The notes below the pieces were generated by a model that worked only from the letters and a program-made list of their open reading frames with translations, had not been told where the DNA came from and ran no database searches. 64,000 nucleotides of DNA from Bryopsis sp. KO-2023. Its lineage: Eukaryota; Chlorophyta; Ulvophyceae; Bryopsidales; Bryopsidaceae. The stretch spans positions 1,178,001 to 1,242,000 of the forward strand of contig BSYQ01000010.1 of NCBI GenBank assembly GCA_030272585.1. The letters are read 5' to 3'. The translations under genes and the position numbers were made by a program. Below are positions 14,941-44,853 of the stretch, piece after piece. Positions within the stretch are counted from its first letter, which is position 1. Every line of letters begins with the position of its first letter.

Positions 14941-15361
14941 TGTTAGTCTTTTAGCGCTATACGAGGTAGTTTGGGATAGAGCCGAGGGTGGCTGACGCAT
15001 GTGGGTTCACGAGTAAGACAGATTAGACCCAGAGTTTGGGGCATGCGTCAGCGTACTACACTTAGGGGTACTTAAGAGGCCCACTCGTTGTTTTGACATT
15101 CCATTCTAGTTGTAAGAACTCGGGATTCGTGGGATTGGTGTGTTCCCGCTTGTGTGTGTGTTTGTGTGTGTGTGTGTCTAAGTGTTTGCCTGACGCAATC
15201 ACTTATCCAACCAAGTGCTCTAGTAGCGTTCACAACCGCGCTAGCTAGAGAGTTGTCTAAAGCAACAAACCCCACAAGTATACTTGCGTTAGCCAGCAAG
15301 TTATCACGAATCCAACCAACACAGCCGACCACTATTGCGTCACCCACAAGCTTCACTATCA
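14941..15361 (+). repeat. Ty3-A 5' LTR
   Basis: Starts TGTTAGTC and ends CACTATCA, 421 bp, matching 26117-26537 with no difference I could see. It contains a GT-rich run near 15144-15180. The promoter and RNA start should lie here, but no TATA box was assigned. Confidence 0.95.
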
Positions 15362-15362
15362 A

Positions 15363-15381
15363 TTGGTTTCGGAGCGAGGCA
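15363..15381 (+). promoter_or_regulatory. Primer binding site, initiator-Met tRNA type
   Basis: TTGGTTTCGGAGCGAGGC begins one base after the LTR. It agrees at most positions with the complement of the initiator Met tRNA 3' end (TGGTATCAGAGC). Ty3-B has TGGTTTCGGAGC at the same place, so the two elements share a primer. Confidence 0.65.
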
Positions 15382-15506
15382 AGAACTTTAAGTTCTTGAG
15401 ATCGAAACTTGTGAACGTGGCGCAACAAACGTTTTTGTTTGTTTGTTTGGTAGAGAGAAACTCCAACCGTGGTTGTTGAGTACTCCCAAATAGTGGCTGA
15501 GAGACC

Positions 15507-17500
15507 ATGGCTGACCGTGAGCACGCATTGGCAGTGCGCGAGCCTCAAGTTGAAGAGCCAGGGATTGAACCTGAGTTCGATGAGGAATTGCCTGACGCAC
15601 CCAATGTTGTGTATCAACAAATAAACGTCCAGAACATCCACAATGTCCAGCAAGCAGCTGTCGACATAGACATGGGAGCTGATGCGGAAGCCTTAAGAGA
15701 GGATGTGGATGCGGTCCATGACCGTGTGGACGATTTAGCCCACGGGCTAAGGGGTCACCTGCAGCAAGTTGACCAGACACTGGGGCAGAGGCTAGCCCAT
15801 ACTGAGGCCTCTGTGTCGAACCAACTGGCTGGCGCATCAGAGGTGATCGGGCAGGCGTTGGAAACACAGCACCAGCATGCGCAACAGGTTGAGGCCACAC
15901 AGCATGCGGTGGTGTCGCAACAGCAGAAGCTGGATTCAGTAGCGGCTCAACATAGTCGATACGAGCAGAGGCTATTACGCCAAGATATCGATCATAGAAA
16001 AGAAAGAGCCGAGATCAGAGCTTCTGTGGATGCAATAACGAGGAGAATGGATGCCGCAGATATTCTAGCGGACTCTCGTTTTGCTGACCTAAAAGAAACG
16101 GCTGAAGCATCAGCACTTCAGTTAAAACAACTCTCCGAGTTATCCCTTGTTCAAGGGCGGAGAATTGAAGGCTTATTAGGAACTGTTGCGGATTCCAACG
16201 AAAAAGTCGAACGGACTCTAGAATTGTTTCGGGAGTCCTTGCACAAACAAGGTGCTGAGGTGAAGCGTTTGCAGAGCTCAAGAGTAGCAATTCAAAAAGA
16301 TTTGATTGCCTTGGAGAAAAAGGCATCCAAGACCTGGGATCAGCAGCAAGATGCAGCTGATGTGGTTGCCTTAAGATTATCTGGCCTGGAACGAAGCATG
16401 GAGGATGTGAGTGGCGGAAGTCAGAGTGCCCAAAGTGGAAGTGATGCTCGAGCAGTATCACCAGAGCGAGAAGAATCAACTTCTCCTGAGCCTGAGGACT
16501 CAGCCTTTGGGATGCCGCTGCCGAAGAAATCAGTAAAGCAGTTGGCTGCATCATGGCCGCCACTAGACCAGAGCTTCGCGGTAGGAATGGTTGGGGCAGG
16601 AACCTCAACAATACCGGCTCCTCCAGCAGTACAGGTCGAGGAGGGTGAAATTGTTGCTGCAGAAGCACCACCATGCACTGCAGTGGACAGCGCACCAGAC
16701 GCTGATTTCACATTCCCTCAATTGATACCTCCAAGTACAAGAGCTCAGCCTGGAGTACGCATCTCAGAACCCGACTCTGCCGATGGATCACGTAGACCCA
16801 CACGAACTAACCCAAGAGTTCTCTCCTCAGCAGAAGTGTTATATCAAATTGACCTTGAGCGTGCTAAGGCACAGGTCAGAGAAGAGAAAGGAAAAGAACC
16901 CATGCAGATCCCCACACGTACTGGAAGATTGGGACTTGGGTTAAGTGCTTTGGGAGCAAGGGTAGAAAATAATCCCTTTGCTGCACTTGGTTCATATGAG
17001 TCTACTGGTGGACCCAGTCGAGTTCCTCGCATGCGAGGTAACTTTGGAGACCCTGGTGATGACGACCCAGATGATGATGGCGGTGATGATTACCGCGACA
17101 GACGAAACCGCCCACCTTCCCGCATTCCAGGTGCGCCTGATGGCGGTGGAGGTGGTGGCGGCGGTGGAGATGGTGGAGGCGGTGGACCTCCCGGTGGACC
17201 TCCTGGTGGAGGTGGAGGTGGAGGTGGCGCTGGACCAGCAGGCCCAGGACCTCCTAGGCAAGGACAGTGGTTGCCTAGCACTGTCAAGTTGCAAATGCCT
17301 CGCGCATTTAACGGAAGTGGCGAACCAAAAGCCCGTAAATGGCAAGTGCTCATGACGCGGTACTTGAGAACCTGCGGAGTGCATGAAGCACAGTGGCAAT
17401 CGATCATGGCCACTAACCTTTATGGGGCTGCCTCGGATTGGTTAACGATGCAAGAGTTGAAAATTCACCGAGGTGAAAGACCACCCTTCCGTGACTGGAT
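15507..17500 (+). CDS. gag: Ty3-A Gag, amino-terminal part (interrupted)
   Basis: Structural protein forming the particle. ATG at 15507, about 664 codons up to the insertion at 17501. The first 60 residues include an Asn/Gln/His/Val stretch (QQINVQNIHNVQ) that is also recognisable in Ty3-B Gag (QHNVQNVHHV). Residues 60-300 are charged and probably coiled coil; then comes an acidic/Pro region, a long Gly-rich tract (about residues 540-580), and the start of the retrotransposon Gag domain. The frame runs into the GATCGG transposon and ends artificially at 17798. It resumes at 18526. Confidence 0.85.
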
Positions 17501-17847
17501 CATACTATGGATCCGATCACGATCTAATCGGTCGTGGATTGATCGGTCCGACCGATTAAATCGTGATCGGGTTTTTCCGATCAGATCGATCGCCGATCAA
17601 ATCGGTTTGGCCGATCATCGATGGAGATCGGCCGATCACCAATCTGATCGGCTGACCGATTTAATCGGCCAACTTCGATCGGCCGATCACGATCAAACCG
17701 ATCAACGTCAGCCGATCAAGTGCCGACAGGTCGCGGCGCTTGATCGGGATCGGGATCGGGATCGGAGATGCCGATTAGATCGGATCATGATCGGTTAATT
17801 GATCGGTCCATCACAAATGCCGAGAAATCACCACCCGCAGGTGTTTC

Positions 17848-17925
17848 TGGGGTGCAAGGATTCGAACCTGGGACCTAACAGACTAGAGACAGACGCATTA
17901 ACGCTTGGACCACTCGGGGCCACGG
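17848..17925 (-). pseudogene. tRNA-derived segment (Ser/Leu-like), left arm of GATCGG element
   Basis: Minus strand reads CCCGAGTGGTCCAAGCG, the D-arm pattern of class II tRNAs, then a perfect B-box GGTTCGAATCC. The acceptor halves do not pair, so it is a pseudo-tRNA, although the internal promoter boxes remain. Confidence 0.55.
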
Positions 17926-18009
17926 TCACTCGGCCATCCGTGTCATTATATACCTCAGTTTGTCGGACTGACAGATCACGTATATAATGACACGGATGAC
18001 CTACAAACC

Positions 18010-18084
18010 GTGGCTCCGAGTGGTCCAAGCGTTAGTGAGTATGCTTCTAATCCGTTAGGTACCCGGTTCGAATCCTTCCACCTC
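18010..18084 (+). pseudogene. tRNA-derived segment (Ser/Leu-like), right arm of GATCGG element
   Basis: Plus-strand mirror partner of the segment at 17848-17925: CTCCGAGTGGTCCAAGCG, then GGTTCGAATCC. It differs from its partner at several positions, so the two arms have diverged. Confidence 0.55.
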
Positions 18085-18525
18085 AGAAACACCTGCGGGT
18101 GGTGACTTGTCAGCATTTTCGCGAGACCGATCAATTCATCGATCAAATGATCAATACCGATCATGATCGGATGCAGGTCCGATCACGATCGGCCTATCAC
18201 GATCACACCGATCAAGGTCAGCCGATGAAGTGCCGACAGGTCGCGGCGCTTGATCGTGATCGGGATCGTGATCGGAACAACCGATCAGATCGGTGATCGG
18301 CGAACCGATCACGATCACGATCAACATGTGATCGGACGATCAAGAGCACGATCAACATTTGATCGGCCGATCACGATCACGATCACCGATCAGCCAAAAA
18401 TGAAAAAAAAAAAAAAAAAAACCGATCATTGCTAAAATCGGTTCTAGGACGCAGTTATGATGTCGGATTACTGCTGTGACCTAATATTACCTTAGTTTTG
18501 GAAGATCGATCAGATCCATAGTATG

Positions 18526-19191
18526 GACTGGATGGACTTCATGGATGGCTTAGCTACAGCTTTCGAATTCTCTAGTGATCGAGATGAAGCGTGGCGTGAC
18601 CTCCACAAACTCAAGCAGACTGGAACCGTGAAACAGTTTGTAAAAGAGTTTCAGCGGTTAGTCTTGAGGATTCCAGACCTCGAAGAGGATCACCAGTATT
18701 TGCTCTTCGTGGATGGACTTAAGAGTGAAGTTCAGAAGTTAGTCGCTGCAACGGTACCTCGCGATGTCGAGGCTGCCATCATATCCGCCGAACGATTGGA
18801 AGCCCTTGGAGTTGGAACACAAGGCCAAGGAGGGCAGACCAATCAGAAAAAGAAAGGAGTCTGGCGTGGTGGAAGAAAGAAGAAAGGCCAGAATCAGGGT
18901 CAGCAGCAGCAGAACCCTACACCACCAGCCCAAGCACCACCACAAGCTGCCGCAGGAGTGCAACAGCAGCAGCAACAGCAACAAGGACGAGGAGGAGGAC
19001 GTGGTGGTGGTGGACGTGGACGCGGTGGTGGTAACCGTGGAAGAGGACAAGCCAATCAGGGAAGACAGAACCCCCAGGGGGGAGGGGGATATAATTGTTA
19101 TCTTTGTGGAAAGAAGGGTCACCCTGTGAGGCAATGTCCTAGATTGGAGGAGGTGAAAAACCTCCCCGATGTAAAAAAAATGTTAAACTGA
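18526..19191 (+). CDS. gag: Ty3-A Gag, carboxy-terminal part with zinc knuckle
   Basis: Continues the Gag domain in the frame left at 17500. It reads the usual retrotransposon Gag helices, a Gln- and Gly/Arg-rich tract (about 18900-19060), and a canonical C-x2-C-x4-H-x4-C nucleic-acid-binding knuckle (CYLCGKKGHPVRQC, about 19098-19139). It ends at TGA 19189-19191, a few codons after a slippery A run. Confidence 0.88.
   Translation, partial: DWMDFMDGLATAFEFSSDRDEAWRDLHKLKQTGTVKQFVKEFQRLVLRIPDLEEDHQYLLFVDGLKSEVQKLVAATVPRDVEAAIISAERLEALGVGTQGQGGQTNQKKKGVWRGGRKKKGQNQGQQQQNPTPPAQAPPQAAAGVQQQQQQQQGRGGGRGGGGRGRGGGNRGRGQANQGRQNPQGGGGYNCYLCGKKGHPVRQCPRLEEVKNLPDVKKMLN
19173..19179 (+). promoter_or_regulatory. 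Probable -1 ribosomal frameshift site (A AAA AAA) between gag and pol
   Basis: In the gag frame the sequence reads GTA AAA AAA ATG, a canonical X-XXY-YYZ heptamer, 10 nt before the gag stop. After a -1 shift the frame stays open through the pol leader to the insertion at 19275, and on the far side into the pol frame. No downstream pseudoknot was worked out. Confidence 0.65.
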
Positions 19192-19274
19192 CCGCCAGGC
19201 AGGAAACTGCTTCGTCTGAGCCTGGCCGACGCAAACGTCGTAAGCGAAACAGAGTTCGTAGGCGGCGTAGGAAG

Positions 19275-19739
19275 CAGAGATAGGACTTTACGGTTACGGT
19301 CACCGTAACCGGACCGTAACCACCGTAACCGGACCGTAACCGGAGTACAATTTTCGTCAGAAAATCGTACTTTTACGGCCGTAACCGTAGCACCGTACCA
19401 CTCCGTACCGCTCCGTACCGGACCGTAACGACCGTAACGGCCGTAACAACCGTAAACCGTAGAAAGTGACCCCCGCAGGGTCCCGCGATTCCAAAGGAAC
19501 CCAGGGGGATTCGAACCCGCGACCCTACTGACTGCAGCCTAACGCTTTAGCACTGAACCACGCTACTTCACGGTGATTTAGGGCCTACCGTAGTTATACC
19601 GTACCTGTTCCGTACCGTAAAAACAACATATTACTCCGGTTACGGTACGGAGTTACGGCCGTAGTACGGTGACCGTAACCCGACCGTAACCGGACCGGAC
19701 CGGAGTCGGACCAAAAATTTGGCCCAAGTCCTATCTCTG
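19275..19739. mobile_element. Fold-back DNA transposon, CCGTAAC family, copy 2, at Ty3-A gag-pol junction
   Basis: Same ends as the copy at 8760 (CAGAGATAGGACTT and its complement). Flanked by the 8-bp duplication GTAGGAAG (19267-19274, 19740-19747). Filled with CCGTAAC motifs and a tRNA-Cys-like segment. It interrupts the -1-frame leader of pol. Confidence 0.92.
19501..19571 (-). pseudogene. tRNA-derived segment (tRNA-Cys, GCA, -like) in CCGTAAC copy 2
   Basis: Minus strand: GTGGTTCAGTGCTAAAGCG (A-box region), anticodon loop CTGCAGT, then GGTCGCGGGTTCGAATCC (B-box). The middle closely follows tRNA-Cys, but the acceptor stem does not pair. It is better preserved than the copy at 8953-9030. 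Confidence 0.6.
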
Positions 19740-19747
19740 GTAGGAAG

Positions 19748-22700
19748 CATAGATCAAAAGTAGGTGCCTCGAAAAAGGTTAAAAGTACTCACAGCGGAAA
19801 ACCTGAGGAGCGGACTAGTACACCGCGTGAAGAGAGAACAGAGACACTCTCCACATCTACCCAATCGGCACATGACAACTGCGATTGGAAAAATGAACAG
19901 AAGGAAAGCACACCGGATGAGATGGACGCGCCTCATGCGTCATCTGCATCTCTTCCCTCTGTTAGTGAATCTGTGGGCTCATTGGAGTCGCAGAGTAGTC
20001 TACAGGAGTCCCTGCCTGCAGACGTAGACGATAGTGGGTCAGAAACAACCCAGCGGTCTACCACAGAGCGAGTTAATGTGTCAGAAGTTCGATCAACTTC
20101 GTCAACCAAGGGTGACACATGCCCTCTGTTAAAAATTCAAGAAGTGCCTGTGAGAGGGTACGAAGTAAAAGCACGGATCAAAACCACGGACCTTTATGCA
20201 TTCATTGATTGTGGAAGTACCGCAAACTATATCAATGATAAGGTAGCGCGTGATCTCGGGTTGTTGATTACACCAAGCTCAAAGAGAGCAATGTTGGCAA
20301 ACGGAGATATTAAAGAACTGGCTGGCAGCTGTAACAACCTCCGAGTAAAGATAGGAGGGCTGAAGTGCAAAATGAAAGCGGATCTGTTCCCAGACCTTGG
20401 TTATGACCTAATATTGGGCATGCCTTGGTTGCAGAAAGAAAACCCCCGCATAGACTTTCAGCAAAATGAGATTTCAGTTTGCAAAAACAGCCAAGTGTTT
20501 CATCTCCCGTTGCGTCATCCAACCCAAGAGAGTATTGAACCTGAACGAAAAGTACAGTCGATACTGCAAGAAGTGCCAGTGACTGAGTGTTCAGCTAAGA
20601 GAATGATGCGTCATCTCAAAACAGAGACAGCATTCATGGTTGTAGTGCAAGAGTCTGAAGAGAAAGCTTTAGGCCAACATGAATTGCCTGACGCAATAGA
20701 GCGAACACAGCCATTCAACACTGAGGATGAGATTGGCAAACTTATTCGTTCAGACACCCCTGCCGAAATTAAAAAGGTGGTAGAAACACACCGTGGTGTG
20801 TTCCCTCGTGATTTACCCCCAGGGATCCCTCCGAAGAGAAAAGGTCATGAGTTTAAGATAGACCTGGAGGATCCAACACCTATCCATCGTCCAATATACA
20901 AGCTTTCACCAGCAGAGCTGGATGAAGTGAAAGCACAAGTGGACTACCTTCTGGAACAGAAGAAAATCAAACCATCCGAGTCCCCTTGGGGCGCGCCAAT
21001 CCTATTTGTACCGAAAAAGGATGGAGGCTTAAGGATGTGTGTGGATTACAGGTGGATCAATAAGGTGACGGTGAAAAACCGATATCCTTTACCCCTGCCA
21101 GAAGAATTGATGGATAGAGTGTTCAAAGCCAAAGTGTTCTCAAAGTTAGATCTGCGATCAGGCTACTGGCAATTTCCAGTAAGGCCATCTGATACAGATA
21201 AAACAGCGTTCCGCACGAGATACGGTCACTTTGAGTTTTTGGTAGCGCCTTTTGGGCTAACCAATTGCCCAGCGCAATTCCAAACTCTAGTGCAAGACCT
21301 ACTCACAGAGTTTTTAGATGATTTTGTTGTTGTCTTTATTGATGACATACTCATCTTCTCTGAAAACATGGAACAGCATGCCGAACACTTAGAGAAAGTC
21401 CTGTCGCGACTAGCAGAATATCAGCTTTTTGCTAAGGCAAGTAAAAGTGAGCTGGCTGTCGCAACAGTAGACTATCTTGGCTACCGCATTAGCGGAAGTG
21501 GGTTAGAACCACAGGAACAAAAAGTGAAGGCAGTGAAGGAGTGGAAGGAACTACAGAGTGTTAGCGATGTACGTAGTTTCCTTGGAATGGTTTCATACTA
21601 CAGGAAGTTCATTCCCCAGTTTGCACATGTTGCTGGACCACTCCATGACTTAGTGAAAAAAGACCATCCCTGGAGATGGGGACAGGTTGAGCGTGGCGCA
21701 TTCAATGAACTGAAAAAGCGTCTAAGTCAAGCTCCCGTCCTTATTTTTCCAGATGCGTCACTGCCTTACACTGTGATCACTGATGCGTCGAATGAGGCCA
21801 TCGGTGCCGTGTTAACACAGGATCACGGAGAGGGGCTACAGCCGATAGCTTACCTCTCACGTAGATTCAAGCCTGCCGAGCTTAACTATGCACCATACGA
21901 TAAAGAGTTGTGTGCAATATGTTATGCGATGGTGCAGTGGAGACATTATCTAGAAGGTTGTGCGGGTGGAGTAACAGTGTTCACTGACCACCAACCTCTG
22001 ACGCATATTCTGTCGCAGAGGAACCTTTCTAGAACCCAAGCAAGATGGCTTGAGGCGGGGTACCTGACTTCGATCAACCCCAAGATCTCCTATATCAAAG
22101 GCAAGGCTAATGTGTTAGCAGATGCTCTCTCCCGCAGTGTTCCTAAGCCCGTGGAAACTGCGATGAACATTTCCACTTGGCAAGTGCATCAAGCAAGCCA
22201 AGACGAGTGGAAACAAGCCCTCCAAGCTGATAACTCCTTGGTGAAGATATTGCGGAAGCTTGAGAGTGGCGAGGAAGTTGAGGGATATTTCCTCAGAGAG
22301 GGAATACTCTGGACGGTCCCAAAAAGAGGATTAGTCGAGAAAGTGGTGGTTCCTAAAGGCCAGCGCAATAAGATTATGAAGGAGTGCCATGAGACACCTT
22401 CAGCAGGCCATACAGGACCAGCGCGAACAGGAGAAATCCTAGCGCGGCGATATTGGTGGAAGGGGTGGATGAATGAGTTGAAGGCATTTGTGCGCGAATG
22501 CCCTGTGTGCCAACAAATAAAGGCTGACACACAGAAGCCTATGGGCTTACTTCAACCCCTGCCAATACCTGAGCGGAAGTGGGAGCAGATTACCACTGAC
22601 TTGGTGACAGATCTACCAGCATCCAATGGGTTTACTGCTGTAGCTGTCTTTGTCGATAGACTTACCAAGTTTGTGCATTTCGCCCCATGTACTAAAGAGA

Positions 22701-23662
22701 TTACCGCTGCAGGATACGCCCAACTTTTTATCGAACATGTTTACCGCAACCATGGCCTACCTAAAGTGATTGTGTCTGATAGAGACCCTCGCTTTACCAG
22801 CAAGTTCTGGCAGACGCTTTTTAAAGCTCTGGGTACAGAGATTCGTATGAGTACAGCTTACCACCCTCAAACGGATGGGCAGAGTGAGGTTACCATACGT
22901 ACTCTGGAAAATTTCCTGAGGCCATATGCTGAGAGGTATCCCCATAAGTGGGTTGAGTATTTACCTACAGCAGAGTTTGCAGCAAACAATGCAGTGAATG
23001 CGAGTACAGGGTTCGCACCTGCATACTTGATGTATGGGTACCATCCAGAAACACCAAACATTGGTGGGACGGCAACGCAATTTCAAGTGGAAGCAGTTAA
23101 GACTATGGTAGCACGGATGGCACAGGACTTAGATACCGCAAAAGCATATTACTCTAGAGCACAACACAGAATGTGTGTGAGTGCAAACAAGAAGAGAAAA
23201 GATATTGCTTTTGAGAAAGGAGATAAAGTCCTGATAAAAAGTCGTTTTATTCCGTTGGCTGCTTTGAACAAAGTGAGTCCAAAACTGCGCCGTCGATTTG
23301 TGGGTCCCTTTGAAATTGTGGAGAAAATATCAAAGGTGGCTTACAGAGTTCAACTTCCGGAAACATGGCTCATTCACCCAGTGTTTCATGTTTCTAAGTT
23401 CAAGCGTTATCACGCCTCGAGTGATAACAGCAGGCAAATACAACCTCCAGAAGGAGAGTTGATTGGTAGCGAAGTAGAGTATGAGGTCGAAAATATCCTA
23501 AGGGCTAGAGGTAAACGCAATCGTGAATACCTAGTGCTGTGGAAAGGATACGATCTACTTGACGCTACTTGGGAACCTGAAGCTAATCTGGTTAACGCAC
23601 CAGATATACTTCGCGCATTTAAAGAGAAAGAAAGAAAAGAGTTGCAGAAAGGAAGAGAATAG
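19748..23662 (+). CDS. pol: Ty3-A Pol polyprotein (protease, RT, RNase H, integrase, chromodomain)
   Basis: Makes and integrates the cDNA copy. The frame is open from the right edge of the insertion; the first ATG is at 19922 (1,246 codons), but translation probably arrives by frameshift from gag. Numbering from 19922: protease FIDCGS at about 94-99 (Cys where Ser/Thr is usual), RT catalytic FIDD at about 472-475, RNase H start TDAS at about 620, integrase HHCC finger at about 822-862, and DDE catalytic core from about 892 (Asp in TTDLVTDL), about 952 (SDRDP) to about 990 (Glu in GQSEV). A chromodomain at about 1187-1240 has YLVLWKGY and ATWEP. The chromodomain is known to steer chromovirus integration to marked chromatin. 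Confidence 0.93.
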   Translation, partial: HRSKVGASKKVKSTHSGKPEERTSTPREERTETLSTSTQSAHDNCDWKNEQKESTPDEMDAPHASSASLPSVSESVGSLESQSSLQESLPADVDDSGSETTQRSTTERVNVSEVRSTSSTKGDTCPLLKIQEVPVRGYEVKARIKTTDLYAFIDCGSTANYINDKVARDLGLLITPSSKRAMLANGDIKELAGSCNNLRVKIGGLKCKMKADLFPDLGYDLILGMPWLQKENPRIDFQQNEISVCKNSQVFHLPLRHPTQESIEPERKVQSILQEVPVTECSAKRMMRHLKTETAFMVVVQESEEKALGQHELPDAIERTQPFNTEDEIGKLIRSDTPAEIKKVVETHRGVFPRDLPPGIPPKRKGHEFKIDLEDPTPIHRPIYKLSPAELDEVKAQVDYLLEQKKIKPSESPWGAPILFVPKKDGGLRMCVDYRWINKVTVKNRYPLPLPEELMDRVFKAKVFSKLDLRSGYWQFPVRPSDTDKTAFRTRYGHFEFLVAPFGLTNCPAQFQTLVQDLLTEFLDDFVVVFIDDILIFSENMEQHAEHLEKVLSRLAEYQLFAKASKSELAVATVDYLGYRISGSGLEPQEQKVKAVKEWKELQSVSDVRSFLGMVSYYRKFIPQFAHVAGPLHDLVKKDHPWRWGQVERGAFNELKKRLSQAPVLIFPDASLPYTVITDASNEAIGAVLTQDHGEGLQPIAYLSRRFKPAELNYAPYDKELCAICYAMVQWRHYLEGCAGGVTVFTDHQPLTHILSQRNLSRTQARWLEAGYLTSINPKISYIKGKANVLADALSRSVPKPVETAMNISTWQVHQASQDEWKQALQADNSLVKILRKLESGEEVEGYFLREGILWTVPKRGLVEKVVVPKGQRNKIMKECHETPSAGHTGPARTGEILARRYWWKGWMNELKAFVRECPVCQQIKADTQKPMGLLQPLPIPERKWEQITTDLVTDLPASNGFTAVAVFVDRLTKFVHFAPCTKEITAAGYAQLFIEHVYRNHGLPKVIVSDRDPRFTSKFWQTLFKALGTEIRMSTAYHPQTDGQSEVTIRTLENFLRPYAERYPHKWVEYLPTAEFAANNAVNASTGFAPAYLMYGYHPETPNIGGTATQFQVEAVKTMVARMAQDLDTAKAYYSRAQHRMCVSANKKRKDIAFEKGDKVLIKSRFIPLAALNKVSPKLRRRFVGPFEIVEKISKVAYRVQLPETWLIHPVFHVSKFKRYHASSDNSRQIQPPEGELIGSEVEYEVENILRARGKRNREYLVLWKGYDLLDATWEPEANLVNAPDILRAFKEKERKELQKGRE

Positions 23663-24112
23663 GGAAACAGAGTGTTTGATGGCTAAGGTGGAACTCCTTA
23701 TAGCAAGGGGGCGCGAAAAAGGATACCTTAGAAAAACTCTGTCGACTTCCAAACCAACTCTTTAACTTTAATGCGTTAGGTGCCTAAGTTATTTGGCTGG
23801 CGCAGTAAGTGTAGCTTCAGTAGTACTTTAGAAACCGGGCAAACGATGTCACATTCGAGATAGTGTGGTTGTTCCGAGAAAACCCCTATCAAGTGACGTG
23901 TTGAGGTGGTCTTGACGAGACTCCAACCGAGCAAAACGTTGGTGTCTCACCCCAATAAACCAACGAGGAAAGTGTACGAGTCACCCAGCCTTATAAGCGC
24001 AGCCCTCGAACCATTTTGCCCTAGTGTTTGTGTGAACGGAGCGAGCTCCTGAGTGAAAAAGAGTCTAAAGACGCACAAACCGTTGTTTACCTCTTTCTTT
24101 CCGACAAACATA
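23663..24112 (+). other. Spacer between Ty3-A pol and ORF3
   Basis: 450 bp without a supported reading frame. It may hold a promoter or splice acceptor for ORF3, but no motif could be assigned. Confidence 0.5.
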
Positions 24113-25921
24113 ATGGCTGCCGACACACCCGCCGCAATTATTGCGAGGTTGGAAGCGGAGGTAGCTCAAAAAGAAGAGGAGCTGCAGCACTTTACGTCGA
24201 CCGCAGAGGAAGTGCTGCAGAACAATGAGGCCTTAACCCGGCAGCTCTCAGAGTTGAGTGACCGGACGAAAGCAGCTGAGGCTGCGAAGGAGGCAGCGGA
24301 GAAAGCCAAGGAAAAGGCGGAGGCGGAAAAGGAAGAAGCGGAGGACAAGACCAAGGTCTTGGAAGAAAAATTGGAAGCCATGAAGCTGAAAAAGCAAAGG
24401 TTCCAATCTCATATGATGGCTAACCATCGTGAGAATGACCTCCGTAAACAAGCTCTCGGGGGAATGGTAGATCGATTTACCGCGGTAGAGGAAACGCTGC
24501 AGCGAGCTGTAGCAACCGCGTGGAGTGCAGCAGCCAACAACCTTAAGAAGGAATTGGCAGAACAAGAGCTGCAGATCGATTTGCTGGGAGAGTCCCTCAG
24601 AGACGGCTCTGAAAAACTTCAAGTGCAGAGCGAAACAACGGACAAGATGCTGCGTTTGAACCCGCCGGTACCAGCACCACGGGTACGCGAAGAACTGGAT
24701 CGCCAAGTCCAAGTTCTGTTGTCAAACGCAACACTTGATTTGGAACCGTCCAAGGACGATGATGCGGGAGGCTCAAGCAAGGGCAAGGGGAAAGGGAAAA
24801 ACAAACGTCCAAGCTCACCGTGTAGGGATGAAGATCCACACGGAAAGAGAAGGCGAGAGGACGGTGACGATGAAGGTGGTGAGCCACCGAGGGATCGTAT
24901 GCCTGGAGATGCAGCAAGAGCCAACTTGTTACTCAAGTTAAAGGCTGCCGCATTAAAGACTCCAGCACCCTCACAACCAGCACCAACAGTTCAGACTCCC
25001 GGAGATGAGGCTACCGCAATAGCACCGGGGGAGGACTTATTCGACATGAGAGAGGAGGAGCTTTTGGACTTGGATTTTAACGAAGAAATTGACTTCGGCA
25101 GTCCACCTCCTAGGCTCGAAGGTCCTAGTTCTGAACTGGAGGACGGGGAAATCAGGAATGATGAAGGGCCAAGCCAGGTGACAGAGGTTCAGCGTGCGGT
25201 CCATCCACCGTTGGAGTTAGCTCCAACAGAAGCAGCACTTCGGGCTTTCCGAGAAAAGGTTAAGCTCAGAAGACTAAGGGCGGCTGCTCAGGACAAAGTG
25301 GATGCTGCACCTAGCGAAGTGAACCTGTCACGGGAGGATATCGAGGAGGCTTGCAACCCCATCACTGCGTCAGAGAAATGGCCGAAGGTCCAATATACTA
25401 ACCCCAGGGACCGAGCCTTGCAAAATTACCGCGGCAACCGGCACTTTCACGAGTTGCCCATGTGCATTTGGTGCGGGAGAAGCCCAATGCAGGCAAGTGC
25501 TCAGCGGCTGACGCAGAAGAAGTATTCCGTCCTTCCTTGTGGGTATCACCTCGTGTGTGATGCTCATTGGTTGGCATACTCGATGCTGGGGCGCATCGTC
25601 ACGGCGGTCCAAAAAGTCGCGGAAGTGGACAACAAGTCCATCGCCACCGTCTCCCCATTCTCTCTATCTGCCCATATGTTGAAGCTGACACGCTCGACGT
25701 TCGAAGAAATCCCTCCGTTCCCGGCTGAGCACGAGAAGTTGCCACACTGCAACATGTGTGTGAAGCGGCAGCTCAAGGTGTCCGGCATCACAAGGGATCT
25801 GCCATTCCTTAAGTCCAAGAGGGTGGCTGCCGCATTTGATCCCTGTGTCCGGTATCGTGCAGTGCAGCAAGCGCATGCGCAGGAGCAGCGTGCTATCCCG
25901 CAAGCGCAGGAACAGCGTTAA
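24113..25921 (+). CDS. Ty3-A ORF3: coiled-coil protein with RING-like Cys/His module, function unknown
   Basis: Additional gene between pol and the 3' LTR, ATG at 24113, 602 residues. Residues 5-150 are heptad-rich and strongly charged (coiled coil). Around 215-260 lies a basic, Gly/Lys-rich patch resembling a nuclear signal. Residues 300-370 are acidic. The carboxy-terminal third holds eight ordered ligands: C451-x2-C454, C476-x2-H479-x2-C482-x2-H485, C546-x2-C549. The spacing resembles a RING cross-brace, with the last loop slightly long. Ty3-B encodes a protein of the same layout in the same place. It is not an envelope: no signal peptide or membrane segment is seen. A ubiquitin-ligase-like role is conjecture. 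Confidence 0.8.
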   Translation: MAADTPAAIIARLEAEVAQKEEELQHFTSTAEEVLQNNEALTRQLSELSDRTKAAEAAKEAAEKAKEKAEAEKEEAEDKTKVLEEKLEAMKLKKQRFQSHMMANHRENDLRKQALGGMVDRFTAVEETLQRAVATAWSAAANNLKKELAEQELQIDLLGESLRDGSEKLQVQSETTDKMLRLNPPVPAPRVREELDRQVQVLLSNATLDLEPSKDDDAGGSSKGKGKGKNKRPSSPCRDEDPHGKRRREDGDDEGGEPPRDRMPGDAARANLLLKLKAAALKTPAPSQPAPTVQTPGDEATAIAPGEDLFDMREEELLDLDFNEEIDFGSPPPRLEGPSSELEDGEIRNDEGPSQVTEVQRAVHPPLELAPTEAALRAFREKVKLRRLRAAAQDKVDAAPSEVNLSREDIEEACNPITASEKWPKVQYTNPRDRALQNYRGNRHFHELPMCIWCGRSPMQASAQRLTQKKYSVLPCGYHLVCDAHWLAYSMLGRIVTAVQKVAEVDNKSIATVSPFSLSAHMLKLTRSTFEEIPPFPAEHEKLPHCNMCVKRQLKVSGITRDLPFLKSKRVAAAFDPCVRYRAVQQAHAQEQRAIPQAQEQR

Positions 25922-26097
25922 GGAGGAGGGAACAAGAGTTATCGTCGACCAAGTGTGTGCGTGCAGCAGCTGTCAGAGACGTCAGAGCAAGAGACAGGTC
26001 CAAGACAGTTGGGTGTGGGTATGGGAGTGGGTGAGTTTTGTGTTTGTGTTTTTGTGTTTTTGTTTTTCTTTGTGTTTTGGTGTGCGTGGGCGCCCAC

Positions 26098-26116
26098 TTT
26101 TTGCGGGGGGGGCGTA
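26098..26116 (+). promoter_or_regulatory. Ty3-A polypurine tract
   Basis: TTTTTGCGGGGGGGGCGTA lies directly before the 3' LTR, the position of the plus-strand primer. The G-run is interrupted by C at both ends. Confidence 0.6.
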
Positions 26117-26537
26117 TGTTAGTCTTTTAGCGCTATACGAGGTAGTTTGGGATAGAGCCGAGGGTGGCTGACGCATGTGGGTTCACGAGTAAGACAGATT
26201 AGACCCAGAGTTTGGGGCATGCGTCAGCGTACTACACTTAGGGGTACTTAAGAGGCCCACTCGTTGTTTTGACATTCCATTCTAGTTGTAAGAACTCGGG
26301 ATTCGTGGGATTGGTGTGTTCCCGCTTGTGTGTGTGTTTGTGTGTGTGTGTGTCTAAGTGTTTGCCTGACGCAATCACTTATCCAACCAAGTGCTCTAGT
26401 AGCGTTCACAACCGCGCTAGCTAGAGAGTTGTCTAAAGCAACAAACCCCACAAGTATACTTGCGTTAGCCAGCAAGTTATCACGAATCCAACCAACACAG
26501 CCGACCACTATTGCGTCACCCACAAGCTTCACTATCA
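26117..26537 (+). repeat. Ty3-A 3' LTR
   Basis: 421 bp, no mismatch seen against 14941-15361; followed by the duplicated ATTAA. LTRs are identical at insertion, so this implies a recent event. Confidence 0.95.
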
Positions 26538-26692
26538 ATTAAGCACTTTTAGCGTGCCAATTGTGTATCAATTGACTGGGAACTGAGTTAATTAATTAAA
26601 CAACAAATAATATTGTTACATGTATTTTCATTGCATGAATGACGTGAGCCAAGCTCACCAGCCACCGACTGGAGGGAGTCGGTCGACTCTGG

Positions 26693-26748
26693 GAGGACTC
26701 GAACTCGGGTTGGCTAAGTCCGAGTCGAGAGCACTACAAGGTAGCGGA
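26693..26748 (-). other. B-box-containing tRNA-like segment in GACCGG copy 2
   Basis: Minus strand carries GAGTTCGAGTCC after GTAGTGCTCTCGACTCGG. The T-loop block is convincing. A matching A-box is not, so the tRNA origin is tentative. Confidence 0.35.
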
Positions 26749-27339
26749 CCCCACCATAGGGACGCTCATATGGGGTCCGCTACCTTTAAGTACCCGTTAT
26801 TTTTTATTACAAAAAGTCGGTCGACTCCCTCTAGTCGGTGGCTGGTGAGCTTGGCTCACGTTATTCATCCACTAAAAATATGTATAATAGTATTACTTGG
26901 TGCTTTAATTAATTCAATCACTTCCCAACTGATTGATTCCCAGTTATGTGCTTAATTGTGCGACCTGTTCTAGACAGGCTCCAGGTCGGTCTGGACAGGC
27001 AGCCCACCTGTCCAGACCGACCTGGAGGCGGTCTAAAACAGGTCACACTAGGCGTCACACCGGTCTAAAACAGGGTCACACCGGTCTAAAACAGGTCACA
27101 CGAGTATGACCTGTCCAGACAGGCGACAACCTGTCTGGACAGGTCAGACCGGTCTAGAAAGGTCAAATCCGGTCTAAGAAAGGTGTTCTTTACTAGACCG
27201 GATTTGACCTTTCTTAGACCGGATTTGACCTTTCCAGACCGGTTTGACCTGTCTAAGAAAGGTCAAATCCGGTCCAAGACAGGTTTTCCGGTCCGGTCCG
27301 GTCCTTTAAAACTTGCTGGCGCCCACGTCTGCTCTTTAG

Positions 27340-35363: not shown

Positions 35364-35751
35364 TGATACAAACGTTGGAACAAAATAGACTAGTCGAGTG
35401 GACTTACGTCTAGAGCACGGAAACACTTTCAAACAAGGAACTTTACAATAGTCCAAGTTACAATGAGGCTGTGGTCCGGGCCGAATAAGTATTCGGCCGG
35501 GCCGACAGCCTGTCCAACCCTTTCATCCAACTCAGCGTTCTAATGGCCCCTTGGCCGTGTCCTAATGGACCCTAAGCTGAATGTGAGGCTCCAGGCCGAA
35601 CTGAGGGTTGCCACCTCAGAGGCGGCCTGGACCTCTCCCTTAATGTGTGACTATGATGATGGTGAGCTGGTTCGGTCCGACTACTGTCAGGCCGAACCAC
35701 GTGTTGGGTGAGTGGGCCGAACCACGTGTCATACGACGGACGTTCGTATCA
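35364..35751 (-). repeat. Ty3-B 3' LTR
   Basis: 388 bp, begins TGATACGAACG on the minus strand and ends TTTGTATCA. Matches 44466-44853. Confidence 0.95.
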
Positions 35752-35770
35752 ACCACTCCCCCCCCACGCA
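35752..35770 (-). promoter_or_regulatory. Ty3-B polypurine tract
   Basis: The minus strand reads GTGGGGGGGGAGTGGT directly before the 3' LTR. Confidence 0.7.
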
Positions 35771-36314
35771 AGTACGCGCCTCGCGTACCCAAGTAACCGA
35801 AATTTGGGGGTTACACTCACACATACGCATAGACACACACAAAACGCTTTCAAGGCATCCAACAAGCCTTTAGCTTTTAAGGGAGTCAAATAATGTTTAA
35901 CCTTCGCTGAATTAAAAGAGTGTTCAAAAACTCGAAGCGAATTATCAACAAAAATCAACCAAATGATAAGGCTGCCACCTGCAGGCCGAATCATGTACTG
36001 TAACCAGCTAACTGTTTGCACAAAGCAATCCATAAGGTCCAAATTCAGATTCCCTTATAAGTATCCAGAAAGCAGGTGATTGACCCAGCCTGGCCAATCC
36101 ACTGTATAAAAACCATTGTATAAAAAAAACCATTGTATAAAAAAACCATTGGGTCAGAACTCAAACAAAATAACCCAGTTCTGGATCTGAATGTCCCTTA
36201 TCCAGAAAAGTAAAATCAACAGAAACTCAGCCCAATCCCAGTCTCCCACCATCACACTGTAAAACACCCAAACATCCCTTGCCCTTCTCTCTTTCGTTCC
36301 CGACCCCAGTTCGC
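35771..36314 (-). other. Ty3-B spacer between ORF3 and 3' LTR
   Basis: About 540 bp with no supported frame. A short imperfect repeat of AAAACCATTGTAT units lies near 36110-36150. Confidence 0.5.
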
Positions 36315-37532
36315 CTATTTCTGCGACCTGGTTCTCGGCCCATGCCTCTTGGACGTTGCTGGGCTGTGTGGAGGGAGCGGAAGACGAGTCGCCGAGGAAG
36401 GTGCTGATGGTTGGTCTGGTGATGGTGGTGGGTGGCTCGGCTGACGATGCGATCTTGCTGCTCCTGGGAGTTCCAAGCCGAGAGCCTGGAAATACTGGTC
36501 GTTCCAGGTTCCGACCTGTTCTTTAAGCTTGCCAGGCCAACGACCCTTCAGCGCTGCCTTGGTACAGCTTGGACAATCCGGGAGTGGGGCGTCGAAGGGG
36601 AGGATCGGCTTGACGCCTTGGGTTCCCTCGCCGATGAGGTCCTGTATGCGCGGGAGGTAAGGTCCTCCTGCTTCGTCGGCCGAGATGAGGGCTCCCGCCC
36701 TGGCCGCGATCCTCAGCCCCACATTGTGTTTTTTGCACAAAAGATGCCCTTTTTCGCAGAGCACGCGATCCAATCCTGGGCGGGGAGCTTCCCTCGGGTA
36801 TGCGCAAGCTGCGCAGGCGAATGTGGTCGGAGCGGCCGCTGGAGGTGGTGGTAGTGGTAGGGACGACGTTTTCGGAGGCTCCTCCGAAATGAGGTCATCC
36901 TCACTTCCTGATAGCAGGACGGGACCAGGCTTCGGCCTCGGGGGAAGAGCGTCCTCCAAGTCAGCGTAGGGATCCTCCGTGTAGTCCCACAGCTGTTGCT
37001 CGTCTTCCCCCTCGGCCTCAGCCTGGTCCACTTCCATGGCCTCATCCAGGATGAACCTCCCCACCCCTCGGCCTTTGAGCTTCCTTGACCTTTTCCGTCG
37101 CGGGACCACCACCTTCAGTGGGGTTGACGATGGTCCCTCTGGTGGCCTTTCCGCAGCGACGTCTTCCTGTACCGAGTCTTCCACCGTTTCGGTTTCCACG
37201 TGCTCTTTTTCTTTTTCCTCGGCCAGAGGTTGGTCCATTTCCATACGCTGCAGTCCACGGTTCAGGGTGTCGATAGCCTCGGTCATGGCTGTTTTCGCCA
37301 GCCTTTCCCTTTCCTGCCCCCATACTGCTGCTTGTCGAAACGCATCCAAGCGCTGCGTTTTCAGCTGTTCCTCCAACTGAGCCACTTTCTCCTCAGCGGC
37401 TTTTGCCCGCTTCTCCGCCTCGTTGGCCCTATTTTGCCATTCGGCAAGTTCGGCCTCGAGCTTGTTCTTCTGCTCAGTGGACTGTCGCGCGTCCTGCAGA
37501 AAACGCTCCAAGTTGGCCGCTGTCAGATCCAT
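36315..37532 (-). CDS. Ty3-B ORF3: coiled-coil protein with RING-like Cys/His module, function unknown
   Basis: ATG at 37532 gives 405 residues; an upstream extension to 37601 (first codon 23 residues earlier) is also open. Residues 5-100 are coiled coil, 140-160 basic (PRRKRSRKLKGRG), 165-220 acidic, then a Pro run. The Cys/His module is C240-x2-C243, C259-x3-H263-x2-C266-x2-H269, C320-x2-C323. It corresponds ligand for ligand to Ty3-A ORF3. Both also share PF-x-A and LP just before the last C-x2-C. The carboxy terminus is Pro/Ser-rich. Nothing resembles an envelope protein. Zinc binding is inferred from spacing. Confidence 0.8.
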   Translation of the reverse strand: MDLTAANLERFLQDARQSTEQKNKLEAELAEWQNRANEAEKRAKAAEEKVAQLEEQLKTQRLDAFRQAAVWGQERERLAKTAMTEAIDTLNRGLQRMEMDQPLAEEKEKEHVETETVEDSVQEDVAAERPPEGPSSTPLKVVVPRRKRSRKLKGRGVGRFILDEAMEVDQAEAEGEDEQQLWDYTEDPYADLEDALPPRPKPGPVLLSGSEDDLISEEPPKTSSLPLPPPPAAAPTTFACAACAYPREAPRPGLDRVLCEKGHLLCKKHNVGLRIAARAGALISADEAGGPYLPRIQDLIGEGTQGVKPILPFDAPLPDCPSCTKAALKGRWPGKLKEQVGTWNDQYFQALGLELPGAARSHRQPSHPPPSPDQPSAPSSATRLPLPPHSPATSKRHGPRTRSQK

Positions 37533-37852
37533 GGCTCCTCTTTCCTTTCTTTTCTGTGTTCGGCCGTGTGGGCTCTCTCTCCTTTTTTTTCTCTGACTCA
37601 ATCAAACAAAGGCTTTCTGTAGCGCCTTCGTTACTTCTCCTTAAATTCGCCGATGAGGTACCGGTCAGACACAGTGCGCAACTGAAAGGTACACTCTGAT
37701 GTGACGAGGGATGGGAATTCCCTCCGAACTTCCGAGGTACCGCCTCGTTTGAGGTACCGTCCCATTCCGGCCGAGGTTGACCTCATCAGTTCGTCATCAT
37801 GACTTCCAACTCCCCCATCACCCTCGTCAGTTGCATCAGAAGCTTCCTCCAG

Positions 37853-40800
37853 TCATGCTCGGCCCGTTCGTGCAACGAACTCGGCCAGCAGATCTGAACA
37901 ATGTGTCAGACTCTCCTTCGGCTCCCATGTTGCCTCATGGGGTTGGTATCCTTTCCAGCAAACCAAATAACGTTTTCCTCTTCCCTTTCCTTTCTCCCTG
38001 ACAATAGCCTCCACTTCGTATTCCTCTTCTCCATCCAGCTCATCGATAAGAGCCGGGCCGGGAGGTGCATCCCGCACGAACTCCTCGGACCGCTTGTATT
38101 CCTTGAGCTTGGAGACGTGGAATGTAGGGTGAAGCCTCCAGCCTGGTGGGAGGTCGAGCCTATAGGCCACTGGTGATATTACGGCCTCAACCTTGAACGG
38201 CCCGATGAACCTTCGCCTGACCTTGGCCGGAATATGCTTGGTTACGGCCAGAGGGAGGTGGGCACTTCGGAGGCAAACCTCCTGTCCCACTGCGAATTCC
38301 ACATGTCGCCTCTTTTTGTTGGCGCTCTCACACATGGTCTCCTGGGCCGAAGCGTAGTTTGCTTTGGCCTCCTCCAGGTCTCGGTTCATTCGGCTCACCA
38401 TGGCCTCGGCCGCCTCCACGTTGGTACTCGGCCGGTCGGCCTCCAGGCCTCTTGGGTGTTGCCCATACATCAGGTAGAAAGGGGTGTATTTGGTGCTGGC
38501 GTTGACCGAATTGTTTGCAGCAAATTCGGCCGTGCTGAGGTATTCGCTCCATGTCTCCGGCCTTGCTTCAATGTAGGGCCGAAGGAAGTTCTCCAGTGTT
38601 CGGATTGTTACTTCGCTCTGTCCATCAGATTGCGGATGGTGAGCGGTCGACATCCTTAGATCGGTGCCCACGAGCCGAAACAACTCCTTGTAGAACTGGC
38701 TCGTAAATCTTGGGTCTCGGTCAGACACGATAACTTCCGGTATCCCTGAGGTGGGGAATACTTTGGAGAGAAAGAGCTCGGCATATCCTTTCGCCGAAAC
38801 CTCCTTGGTGCACGGGACGAACTTGCACATCTTCGTGAGCCGATCCACAAAGACAGCCACGGCCGTGTACCCGTTAGACTTCGGTAAGTCAGTAACGAGG
38901 TCGGTCGTCAGCTGCTCCCACTTGTAGGCCGGAACTGGCAGAGGGTGTAGCAACCCTTTCTGCTTAGAATTCTCGGTCTTCATCATTTGGCAAGTGGGGC
39001 ACGATTCGACATAGTGGTTCACGGCTCGGCGCCAGCCTCTCCACCAATGTCTTCGGCTCACAAGCTCGGCTGTCCGAGCTTTCCCTGGATGTCCCGCCAT
39101 CGGCACATCGTGGTGGTCGTGCAATACCACCTGGCGTTTAGAAACCGGCACAACGAGTTTCGGCTCGGCTCCAACGTCCTTGGCTTGATACATGAGCAGT
39201 CCATCTGGGGTCAGGGTGTACCCCTGCACTGCTCGTCCCTCTTCAAGTTGGGTCACGATTGGTCGAAGAATAGGGTCCTCCTTTATGGCGGCTTGCCTGT
39301 CTTGTGCCTCCCCGGGCGAGATTTTGGCCCCCAAAATCGCATTGAGCCGGAGTTGTGGCTTGCGAGAAAGCGCATCGGCCACAAAATTGGCTCGGCCCGG
39401 AAGATATAAAATCTTCGGCTTGATAGACTGGAACGATCCAGACTTCAACCAACGCGTTTGAGTCCGTGAAAGGACGCGTTGCTGTAGAAAATGGGTAGCT
39501 GGGAGGTGATCCGTATACACCGTAGTCCCACCAGGAGCTCCTTCCAGGTAGTGACGCCATTGGGCGAGAGCATAGGAGATGCCCAATAGTTCCCTTTCGT
39601 AGGCCGAATACTTCTGCTCGGCTGAGTTCAGGGAACGGCTCAAAAATGCAATGGGCTGATAACCTTCCTCCTTGCTGCCCTGCATTAAGGTAGCTCCTAA
39701 TGCGAAGTCCGATGCATCCGTGGCAACAACATACGGCTTGGCCGGGTCCGGGATCAAGAGTACTGGGGCCGAAGTGAGTCGGTCCTTGAGCTCTTGAAAC
39801 GTTGCGGTCTGGGCCGGACCCCATTCCCAGGCTTGGTCCTTCTTGACGAGCTTCTGGATGGGAGCAGCAATCCGTGAAAACTCCCTGATGAAGCGTCGGT
39901 AGTAGGACACCATGCCTAGAAAACTCCGCACTTCCGGCACAGACTGTAGGGGCTTCCAATCTTGAATGGCTTGGGTCTTGCTGCGATGAGGGGAGATGCC
40001 GTCGGCCGAAATCCAATGCCCCACGAAATCCAGTTCTTTGACGGCGATGGAACACTTTGACGCCTTCGCATAGAGCTGATGCTCGGCCAGCTTGTCCAGC
40101 ACGAGCCGAAGGTGCTCCGCGTGTTCCTCCTCCGTTTTACTGTAGACGATGATGTCGTCCAGGAAGACCACCAGAAACTTATCGTGGAAATCCCGGAAGA
40201 GGTCGTTCACCATCGCCATGAACTGCGGGGGTGCGTTCGTTAGGCCGAAGGGCACTACTTTGTATTCGTAGTGCCCATAACGGGTCCGAAAAGCGGTCTT
40301 CTCCTGATCTTCGGCCCGGATGGGCATCTGCCAATACCCCGAGCGCAAGTCCAGCCGAGTGAAGATTTTGGCTCCCTGGAGGCGGTCCAATAACTCTTCA
40401 GGGAGAGGGAGGGGGTAGCGGTTCTTGACCGTCCGCTGGTTGATCCACCGGTAGTCAATGCAAAAGCGAAGCCCACCATCCTTTTTGTTGGCGAAAAGGA
40501 TGGGGGCGCCCCACGGGCTCTTTGAGGGCCGAATCAGCTCCCGGTCCAACATGTAGTCGAGCTGTTTTCGGACCTCCGCGAGTTCGGCTGGAGAGAGCTT
40601 GTACATAGGCCGAAAGATCGGCTTCGTTCCTTCCTCCAGTTCGATCTCGAATTCATGACCGTTCCTGACCGGTGGTGGTCCCTTAGGAAGGTCAGAAGCG
40701 AATACTCGCTTGTAGTCCGTTAAGAGCTGCGTGATCGCTTTTGATAGCTCGGGCCGAACTAACTTGCTGATATCATCCTTGGTATGTTCATCGTTTTGTT

Positions 40801-44004: not shown

Positions 44005-44445
44005 GGTTGGACTCCGTGTGCGAGCCGTGGGTCCCGATTGCGAAGGGGTTCCTCGGCCGAGTTTGCCCGCCGGTTGCGTAGGTGCTCCTGGACTTCAGCG
44101 TAGAAACGCAGAAACTCCGGGTCGTTTCTTTCCTCCTCTGTGAAGCAGGAGTCACAGCTTCCGACACTTTCTGTGTCGTCGTTGTCGTTCGGCCCGGTAG
44201 GTGGTGGTACGGGGCTCGGCCTTCGAATAGGCGGTCCCTCAAGTCCGGGAGGTACGCCCTCGATAACGCTTGGGCCGCCGTAGCAAAAGGCCAGCTGGTC
44301 GATATAAAACCTTCTCCAATGTGGTGCGACCAGCTCCTCTGGCACCGTGAGATAACGGGAAGTCGGGTGTTCGTGTGTGCCGGCGGAGGACTGGGGCGAG
44401 GTAGGGTGGCTGTTCGACATACGGGTGGTATGGGTCTTGGTTCCG

Positions 44446-44465
44446 GCTTCGGCTCCGAAACCAGT
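44446..44465 (-). promoter_or_regulatory. Ty3-B primer binding site
   Basis: Immediately after the 5' LTR the minus strand reads CTGGTTTCGGAGCCGAAG. It shares TGGTTTCGGAGC with Ty3-A and resembles the initiator Met tRNA complement. Confidence 0.65.
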
Positions 44466-44853
44466 TGATACAAACGTTGGAACAAAATAGACTAGTCGAG
44501 TGGACTTACGTCTAGAGCACGGAAACACTTTCAAACAAGGAACTTTACAATAGTCCAAGTTACAATGAGGCTGTGGTCCGGGCCGAATAAGTATTCGGCC
44601 GGGCCGACAGCCTGTCCAACCCTTTCATCCAACTCAGCGTTCTAATGGCCCCTTGGCCGTGTCCTAATGGACCCTAAGCTGAATGTGAGGCTCCAGGCCG
44701 AACTGAGGGTTGCCACCTCAGAGGCGGCCTGGACCTCTCCCTTAATGTGTGACTATGATGATGGTGAGCTGGTTCGGTCCGACTACTGTCAGGCCGAACC
44801 ACGTGTTGGGTGAGTGGGCCGAACCACGTGTCATACGACGGACGTTCGTATCA
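44466..44853 (-). repeat. Ty3-B 5' LTR
   Basis: 388 bp, same sequence as 35364-35751 by eye. Should contain the promoter. Confidence 0.95.

Follow-up and report, generated by a model that had tools for sequence, protein, structure and literature searches.

A 64-kb stretch of contig C10 (hereafter the window) of the siphonous green alga Bryopsis sp. KO-2023 carries two Ty3/Gypsy elements, A and B, each of which has a third open reading frame, ORF3, after pol. An earlier note on this DNA had proposed that both ORF3s encode a coiled-coil protein with a RING-like set of Cys and His residues, that their retention reflects selection, and that the protein might act on host ubiquitination or silencing. 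Several groups of LTR retrotransposons contain third ORFs that lack an envelope signature, many of them with no known role. The question raised by this locus is whether ORF3 is a gene maintained by the elements and what kind of protein it encodes. The genome searched consists of 91 Mb in 28 contigs.

Both elements retain two LTRs with TG..CA ends (Table 1), and element B is flanked by a 5-bp target duplication, TCTGG. Pfam analysis identified in both pols the order protease, reverse transcriptase (RT), RNase H and integrase followed by a C-terminal chromodomain, as in chromodomain elements of the Ty3/Gypsy type; the rve core scored over the Pfam cut-off in A and slightly under it in B (29.2 against 32.6 bits). 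The two pols share 53% identity across 1024 aligned residues. The LTR pairs of both elements are identical over their whole length, indicating that both insertions are young. The gag frame of element A is interrupted: it enters a repetitive region containing inverted repeats (17680-18495) and resumes at about 18496, so that either an intron or an insertion may lie there. Palindromic repeats are clustered behind the 3′ LTR of element A (26536-29122), and the same repeat words, TAGAACAGGTCACAC, occur in its 5′ flank (14920-14939), so A probably inserted into such a repeat. The first internal bases are TTGGTTTCGGAGCG in A (position 15363) and CTGGTTTCGGAGCC in B (position 44464), apparently a common primer-binding site for the same tRNA.

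Table 1. Features of elements A and B in the window.
Feature	Position	Strand	Basis
Element A, Ty3/Gypsy with both LTRs	14941..26537	+	Identical 425-bp blocks 14940-15364 and 26116-26540, ends trimmed by eye to TG..CA
LTRs of element A, 421 bp	14941-15361 (5′) and 26117-26537 (3′)	+	TG..CA; 5-bp target duplication, ATTAA
pol of element A: protease, RT, RNase H, integrase, chromodomain	19679..23662 (stop to stop)	+	Pfam, ORF list
ORF3-A, 602 aa	24113..25921	+	73 stop-free places scored, 98-100% identical; dN/dS 0.057
RING-like Cys/His module of ORF3-A, residues 451-549	25463..25759	+	Sequence, alignment
Element B, Ty3/Gypsy with both LTRs	35364..44853	-	388-bp LTRs 44466-44853 (5′) and 35364-35751 (3′), 100% identical
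gag ORF of element B	41743..44094 (stop to stop)	-	Retrotrans_gag match; CCHC-like knuckle near end by eye
pol of element B with C-terminal chromodomain	37853..41971 (stop to stop)	-	Pfam, ORF list
ORF3-B, 405 aa	36315..37532	-	dN/dS 0.091 over 27 full-length copies with unbroken frames
Predicted long helix (coiled coil) of ORF3-B, residues 5-99	37236..37520	-	AlphaFold2, pLDDT >90 over most
Basic stretch PRRKRSRKLKGRGV of ORF3-B, residues 144-157, nuclear-localisation-like by eye	37062..37103	-	pN/pS 0.08 and 0.03 in two windows covering it
RING-like Cys/His module of ORF3-B, residues 240-323	36564..36815	-	Sequence, alignment
Conserved extension 3′ of the ORF3-B module (K325, W332, G334, K337, Y347)	36492..36563	-	Alignment
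Island of mosaic divergence among family B copies, nearly co-extensive with ORF3	36480..37650	-	Divergence scan, clusters, incompatibility test

In both elements ORF3 is an intact sense ORF with pol on one side and the 3′ LTR on the other, and the ORF list and translations agree with the coordinates and frames first given for it. The candidate zinc ligands are C451-x2-C454-x21-C476-x2-H479-x2-C482-x2-H485-x60-C546-x2-C549 in ORF3-A and C240-x2-C243-x15-C259-x3-H263-x2-C266-x2-H269-x50-C320-x2-C323 in ORF3-B, exactly the eight positions and loop lengths (21/15 and 60/50) that had been claimed. Shuffling of residues produced the RING-spaced pattern in 0 of 100000 trials for each protein, which excludes chance arising from composition. 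A six-frame search covering the window together with eight further integrase loci (L001-L008, each of 3.3 kb) turned up no fitting stop-to-stop frames of at least 90 aa apart from ORF3-A and ORF3-B. The presence of a RING-spaced third ORF in both elements is thereby confirmed.

The order of parts proposed for the two proteins (coil, basic patch, acidic stretch) was recovered fully in ORF3-B, where a long helix is predicted and a block of net charge +7 (residues 121-160) is followed by one of -14 (residues 161-200). In ORF3-A the acidic block stands (net -17 in residues 281-360), but the supposed basic patch is of mixed charge. The extension that follows the module is an addition to the earlier description; its W-x-G part is missing in A. 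No membrane segment is evident in either protein, as had been stated: the highest Kyte-Doolittle means over 19 residues are 1.01 in A and 0.80 in B.

Genome searches showed that ORF3 is widespread. The 73 scored places of ORF3-A, none of which contains a stop, came from 302 first-look candidates; the search with ORF3-B found 101 places, and those with pieces of two other families found 113 and 129. Altogether about ten ORF3 families are present, with longest frames of ~325 to 634 aa, in addition to weaker matches and fragments. Decayed pieces gather on contig C2, which holds 7 of the 10 stop-bearing matches of one family search, as if old copies persisted longer on this chromosome, perhaps in a low-recombination region.

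The module was aligned for nine families, namely B, seven taken from short pieces, and A; a tenth sequence (L075), which has one stop, was dropped from the family alignments and checked for ligands only. All ten conform to C-x2-C-x13-21-C-x2/3-H-x2-C-x2-H-x47-60-C-x2-C-x-K, and the eight ligands are likewise present in 30 of 30 A copies and 30 of 30 B copies. The last pair reads C-P-x-C in nine of the ten sequences, A being the exception, and C-x-K directly after that pair is found in all. Seven B-type families share 21 invariant columns, including G272, R274, A276, R278, A279, K325, W332, G334, K337 and Y347 in ORF3-B numbering; on addition of an eighth family R274 loses its invariance, Lys being found instead. 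The module of ORF3-A has the ligands and the Lys and lacks the W-x-G extension. The PF-x-A and LP motifs noted before the last C-x2-C are indeed common to A and B but are not retained across the other families. The score of the B-type profile against the A module was reached by 0 of 150 full shuffles and by 4 of 150 shuffles in which Cys and His were fixed, and a BLASTP comparison of ORF3-A with ORF3-B aligned the coil best (E 0.004) and the module weakly (E 0.15). The two modules are likely to be homologous; the case is made by their ligands, their position and the order of parts, and other residues lend it only modest support. Between families pS ranges from 0.64 to 0.88, which is saturated or nearly so, and protein identity in the module from 31 to 65%.

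The association of ORF3 with pol was counted for the best 150 pol ends scored, 95 of which are at least 59% identical to that of B and 55 of which are 49-51% identical. Most of the decayed fragments on contig C2 were omitted from the ORF3 list, partial hits were picked by reading match ranges, and one B copy with ORF3 in two matches (C6:499254-500396) was counted as whole. Among these best 150, 88 of the 95 related pol ends are followed on the same strand by an ORF3 match at most 3 kb downstream, and 74 of the matches span the whole module. By identity to B, such a match follows 35 of 36 pol ends at 95-100% (31 with the whole module), 41 of 43 at 73-79% (33), 8 of 11 at 65-67% (6) and 4 of 5 at 59% (4). 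The survey of related Ty3 elements that the earlier note had proposed thus finds ORF3 after most related pols, and a sense ORF located between pol and the 3′ LTR, with the whole module in 74 of 95 copies, has the features of an additional ORF. The 55 pol ends at 49-51% identity gave one ORF3 match, 1848 bp away in a possible nested insertion. These elements either have no ORF3 or have one too diverged to find; the latter is possible because A itself was not listed by any B-type search. The best 150 rve and chromodomain matches were taken up by other families, and their lack of overlap with ORF3 places is uninformative.

Fourteen of the ORF3 matches are partial. Six of them are split or truncated; in five of the six, a match to the absent part lies ~3 to 10 kb away, as would be left by an insertion. 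The other eight belong to one family and retain the tail of ORF3 only. Seven of the eight have 1358-aa pol frames. The spacing from pol is 583 bp in four, all with open 1358-aa pol frames, and 212-780 bp in the others; in an ordinary copy it is 1298 bp to the same residue. Tail-only copies are located at C4:594103-604768, C4:1714386-1715693, C4:3968989-3970296 and four other places, and two of those with 583-bp spacing are 9.4 kb apart. The group looks like a deletion derivative that is still spreading. Tail-only copies with an open pol indicate that ORF3 can be lost in some copies, which argues against a strict need for it in cis. Absence of ORF3 from other intact copies, which was to count against its significance, was found in these eight copies of a small sub-lineage but not in most copies.

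Selection on ORF3 was assessed from dN/dS over all pairs. For family A, 29 copies including that of the window were used, L030 having been left out (pol not aligned in frame, five stops). The values were 0.057 for ORF3, with dN biased downward because the ORF3-A copies were the 30 best of 73 scored by ORF3 protein score, and 0.055 for the pol end. For family B they were 0.091 for ORF3 (27 copies, broken L066-L068 dropped) and 0.030 for the pol end (25 copies, L041 and L046 dropped). Within ORF3-B, no 25-codon window has a pN/pS above 0.25. Selection, which had been surmised from retention, is therefore evident as purifying selection in both families (dN/dS 0.06 in A and 0.09 in B), and the neutral ratio that would have contradicted it was not seen. 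A broken remnant was rejected as well, there being no stops in the 57 full-length copies used.

These data support ORF3 as a selected accessory gene, present in most copies and not env-like. An envelope-like or movement protein would agree with the position of ORF3, which is that of env in Ty3 elements, but no hydrophobic segment is long and strong enough for a membrane span; env was rejected for this reason, and we find such a protein barely credible. A functionless passenger, or a gene dispensable in cis and supplied by other copies, would agree with the eight tail-only copies, seven with 1358-aa pol frames and four with 583-bp spacing, and with the finding that, among the best candidates scored, no relatives outside the Bryopsis genome were found except one probable contaminant. 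Against it stand the dN/dS of 0.06-0.09, the invariant ligands and the occurrence of an entire module behind 74 of the 95 related pol ends, and loss in some copies would also fit a protein helping in trans. A pure passenger is rejected by dN/dS, and the broader form of this explanation is very improbable.

What the module does is a different matter. The order and spacing of the eight ligands are those of a RING in all ten sequences, although the last loop, for which 48 residues is the usual maximum in RING domains, has 47 residues in one sequence and 49-60 in nine. No Pfam RING model scored above its curated cut-off (the best were Prok-RING_4, E 0.047, and zf-RING_5, E 0.3, each in one of 8 members), and zinc-ribbon models score no worse than RING models, with Zn_ribbon_8 at E 0.064 in two of 8 members. 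Searches of Pfam, NCBIfam, PHROGs and PDB with the module, and of Pfam with the ORF3s, gave no match over the cut-off or beyond chance level; in PDB no relative of the module was found. In two structure models, for which the alignments had only 4 and 3 rows, pLDDT of the module was about 27-51. The position directly following the last Cys, which holds the usual linchpin of E3 ligases, is not conserved in the ten sequences (V, T, M, H, Q, Y, T, Y, R, A), the Lys in all ten being one place further. The description as RING-like therefore holds for ligand order and spacing, but not for Pfam models, which favour zinc ribbons equally, or for the linchpin.

Two readings of the module in functional terms deserve consideration. 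ORF3 might be a genuine ubiquitin ligase of the RING type, tagging factors of host chromatin or silencing so that they are removed. Its RING ligand order, the C-P-x-C in nine of ten sequences and the layout of a coil with a C-terminal RING, as in Bre1/HUB-type ligases, are in favour of this; the lack of a Pfam RING match over the cut-off, a His as sixth ligand in ten of ten, the unconserved linchpin and the absence of a fold from the models make it rather doubtful. Alternatively, the zinc module may be a nucleic-acid-binding or regulatory domain unrelated to ubiquitin, acting for example as an additional nucleocapsid or in the regulation of chromatin or element RNA. Conserved basic and aromatic residues, namely R274, R278, K325, W332 and K337, invariant in seven B-type families, make this a real rival, and the unconserved linchpin position also agrees with it, as does TRP28 of plant Retand elements, predicted to be DNA-binding and likewise placed between pol and the 3′ LTR according to the accessible text of PMC11963269. 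The ligand order and spacing are, however, those of a RING and not of a CCHC knuckle, and a long coil with an acidic linker suits a protein scaffold; a nucleic-acid role is possible, if on the whole unlikely.

We give about an even chance to ORF3 being a coiled-coil, RING-like and probably nuclear accessory scaffold protein of chromodomain Ty3 elements. According to this scheme a clade of such elements has long kept ORF3 as an accessory gene. The N-terminal coiled coil would make the protein a dimer or oligomer; it would be followed by a basic patch resembling a nuclear localisation signal (clear in B), a conserved acidic linker and the C-terminal module with ligands C C C H C H C C, which may bind two zinc ions in a RING-like cross-brace, and, in families other than A, by a basic and aromatic extension. 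In the nucleus the protein would serve as a protein-binding scaffold, most simply as an E3-like factor directed against proteins of host chromatin or silencing. The earlier suggestion that it acts on ubiquitination or silencing in the host is conjectural. Ubiquitin-ligase activity in particular is only a hypothesis and the weakest step, because no Pfam match exceeds the cut-off, zinc-ribbon models score equally, the linchpin is unconserved and the models yield no fold.

Family B revealed a further property of ORF3. In this family dS is 0.27 in ORF3 against 0.067 in the pol end, and the plain distance is 4% in the spacer and 5% in the stretch from ORF3 to the LTR; for the single copy L064, dS is 0.450 in ORF3 against 0.015 in the pol end. 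A divergence scan in 75-bp steps, from which L041, L045, L046 and L066-L068 were dropped, as they were from the clustering and the incompatibility test, gave mean values of 2.7 to 11.6% from about 37607 to 36482. Upstream of this island divergence was 0.3 to 3.7%; downstream it was mostly 1.5 to 4%, apart from a single window of 8% and a rise at the aligned end. Clustering at 3% gave 11 and 12 clusters in the middle of ORF3, two in the pol end and two in the 3′ noncoding region with the LTR. Synonymous divergence is 0.074 in the last 60 codons of ORF3-B (36318-36497) and 0.22-0.38 in the rest, which places the end of the island within the gene.

A local mutation hot spot without recombination would likewise lift dS in ORF3 alone. 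Comparison of L040 with the window copy showed instead that identical blocks and blocks diverged by 5-11% alternate inside one ORF3. In a custom-written, PHI-like test, incompatibility as low as that observed was found in 0 of 300 permutations for ORF3 (190 informative sites) and in 237 of 300 for the pol end (45 sites). Furthermore, the element at C10:787k has 96% (gag) and 90% (pol) DNA identity to B but 48% protein identity in ORF3, with a module dS of 1.64. A hot spot is improbable on these data. Recombination is evident: ORF3 alleles have been swapped between elements, most likely through template switching during reverse transcription, and such exchange would place old ORF3 alleles on younger pol backbones. 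Other parts of family B are also mosaic, pol being mostly 97-100% or 92-94% identical; nearly all full-length gag matches are at 94-100% and one is at 78%. Recombination is thus general, and ORF3 keeps most of the old diversity observed. No divergence island was found in family A.

As dN/dS stays low, diversifying selection on the ORF3 protein is not indicated. A passive account, in which template switching is combined with stricter purging of gag, pol and LTR combinations than of ORF3, is enough to explain the island; selection for new ORF3 nucleotide sequence, for example against small-RNA silencing, is possible. A bolder proposal joins the two lines of evidence: through ORF3 the Ty3 elements would supply a nuclear ubiquitin ligase of the RING type by which a silencing factor of the host is disabled, and ORF3 alleles would be exchanged as the host target, or homology-based silencing of ORF3, keeps changing. 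We consider this unlikely; if true, ORF3 would be a transposon counterpart of viral counter-defence proteins. The mosaic of family B in any case gives the accessory gene a deeper and more reticulate history than the adjoining polymerase gene. With about ten ORF3 families, many intact copies and a candidate active module in one genome, function is directly testable, and the ORF3-deleted derivatives provide a natural contrast.

The module can be set against known domains. It resembles the RING finger (C3HC4 and RING-H2) in the arrangement C-x2-C ... C-x2/3-H-x2-C-x2-[C/H] ... C-x2-C and in C-P-x-C in nine of ten sequences. It differs in the invariable His at the sixth ligand, the last loop of 47-60 residues, the conserved C-x-K, the W-x-G extension (except in A) and the lack of a Pfam match over the cut-off. 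Ligand spacing in all ten modules is unlike that of the retroviral nucleocapsid CCHC knuckle (C-x2-C-x4-H-x4-C). Ligases of the Bre1/HUB type consist of a coiled coil and a C-terminal RING; the order of parts is the same in ORF3, a likeness of layout only.

Relatives of ORF3 were sought among 5.8 billion proteins. The 8000 best candidates scored per search, which words from the coil may crowd so that the result does not extend to absence elsewhere, yielded only three gene models of Bryopsis sp. KO-2023, of which the best covers 30% of ORF3-A at 97% identity, and one contig filed as Parasphingorhabdus; scans of viral and prokaryote sequences gave none. That contig, of 1153 bp and assigned to a bacterium, encodes a 93% match to ORF3-B. 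Two closed Parasphingorhabdus genomes were assembled from cultures of this alga, according to the accessible text of PMC12509668, so host DNA in some such bacterial assembly is likely.

Among described third ORFs of LTR retrotransposons, none bearing a RING was found in the titles and beginnings of abstracts searched, which is not proof of absence. By word search, 'RING' and zinc terms are absent from the accessible text of PMC5408684, PMC6338049 and the review PMC7264820, and 'zinc' from that of PMC11963269. The accessible portions of two of these papers nevertheless describe comparable systems. In bdelloid rotifers, LTR elements carry ORF3s of GDSL, DEDDy, coiled-coil and membrane types (PMC5408684), and plant Retand elements carry TRP28, an antisense gene between pol and the 3′ LTR with predicted DNA binding (PMC11963269). 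Like ORF3 of Bryopsis, both are third genes located between pol and the 3′ LTR and present in many copies (PMC5408684, PMC11963269); TRP28 of Retand is read in antisense, whereas the Bryopsis ORF3 is in the sense orientation.
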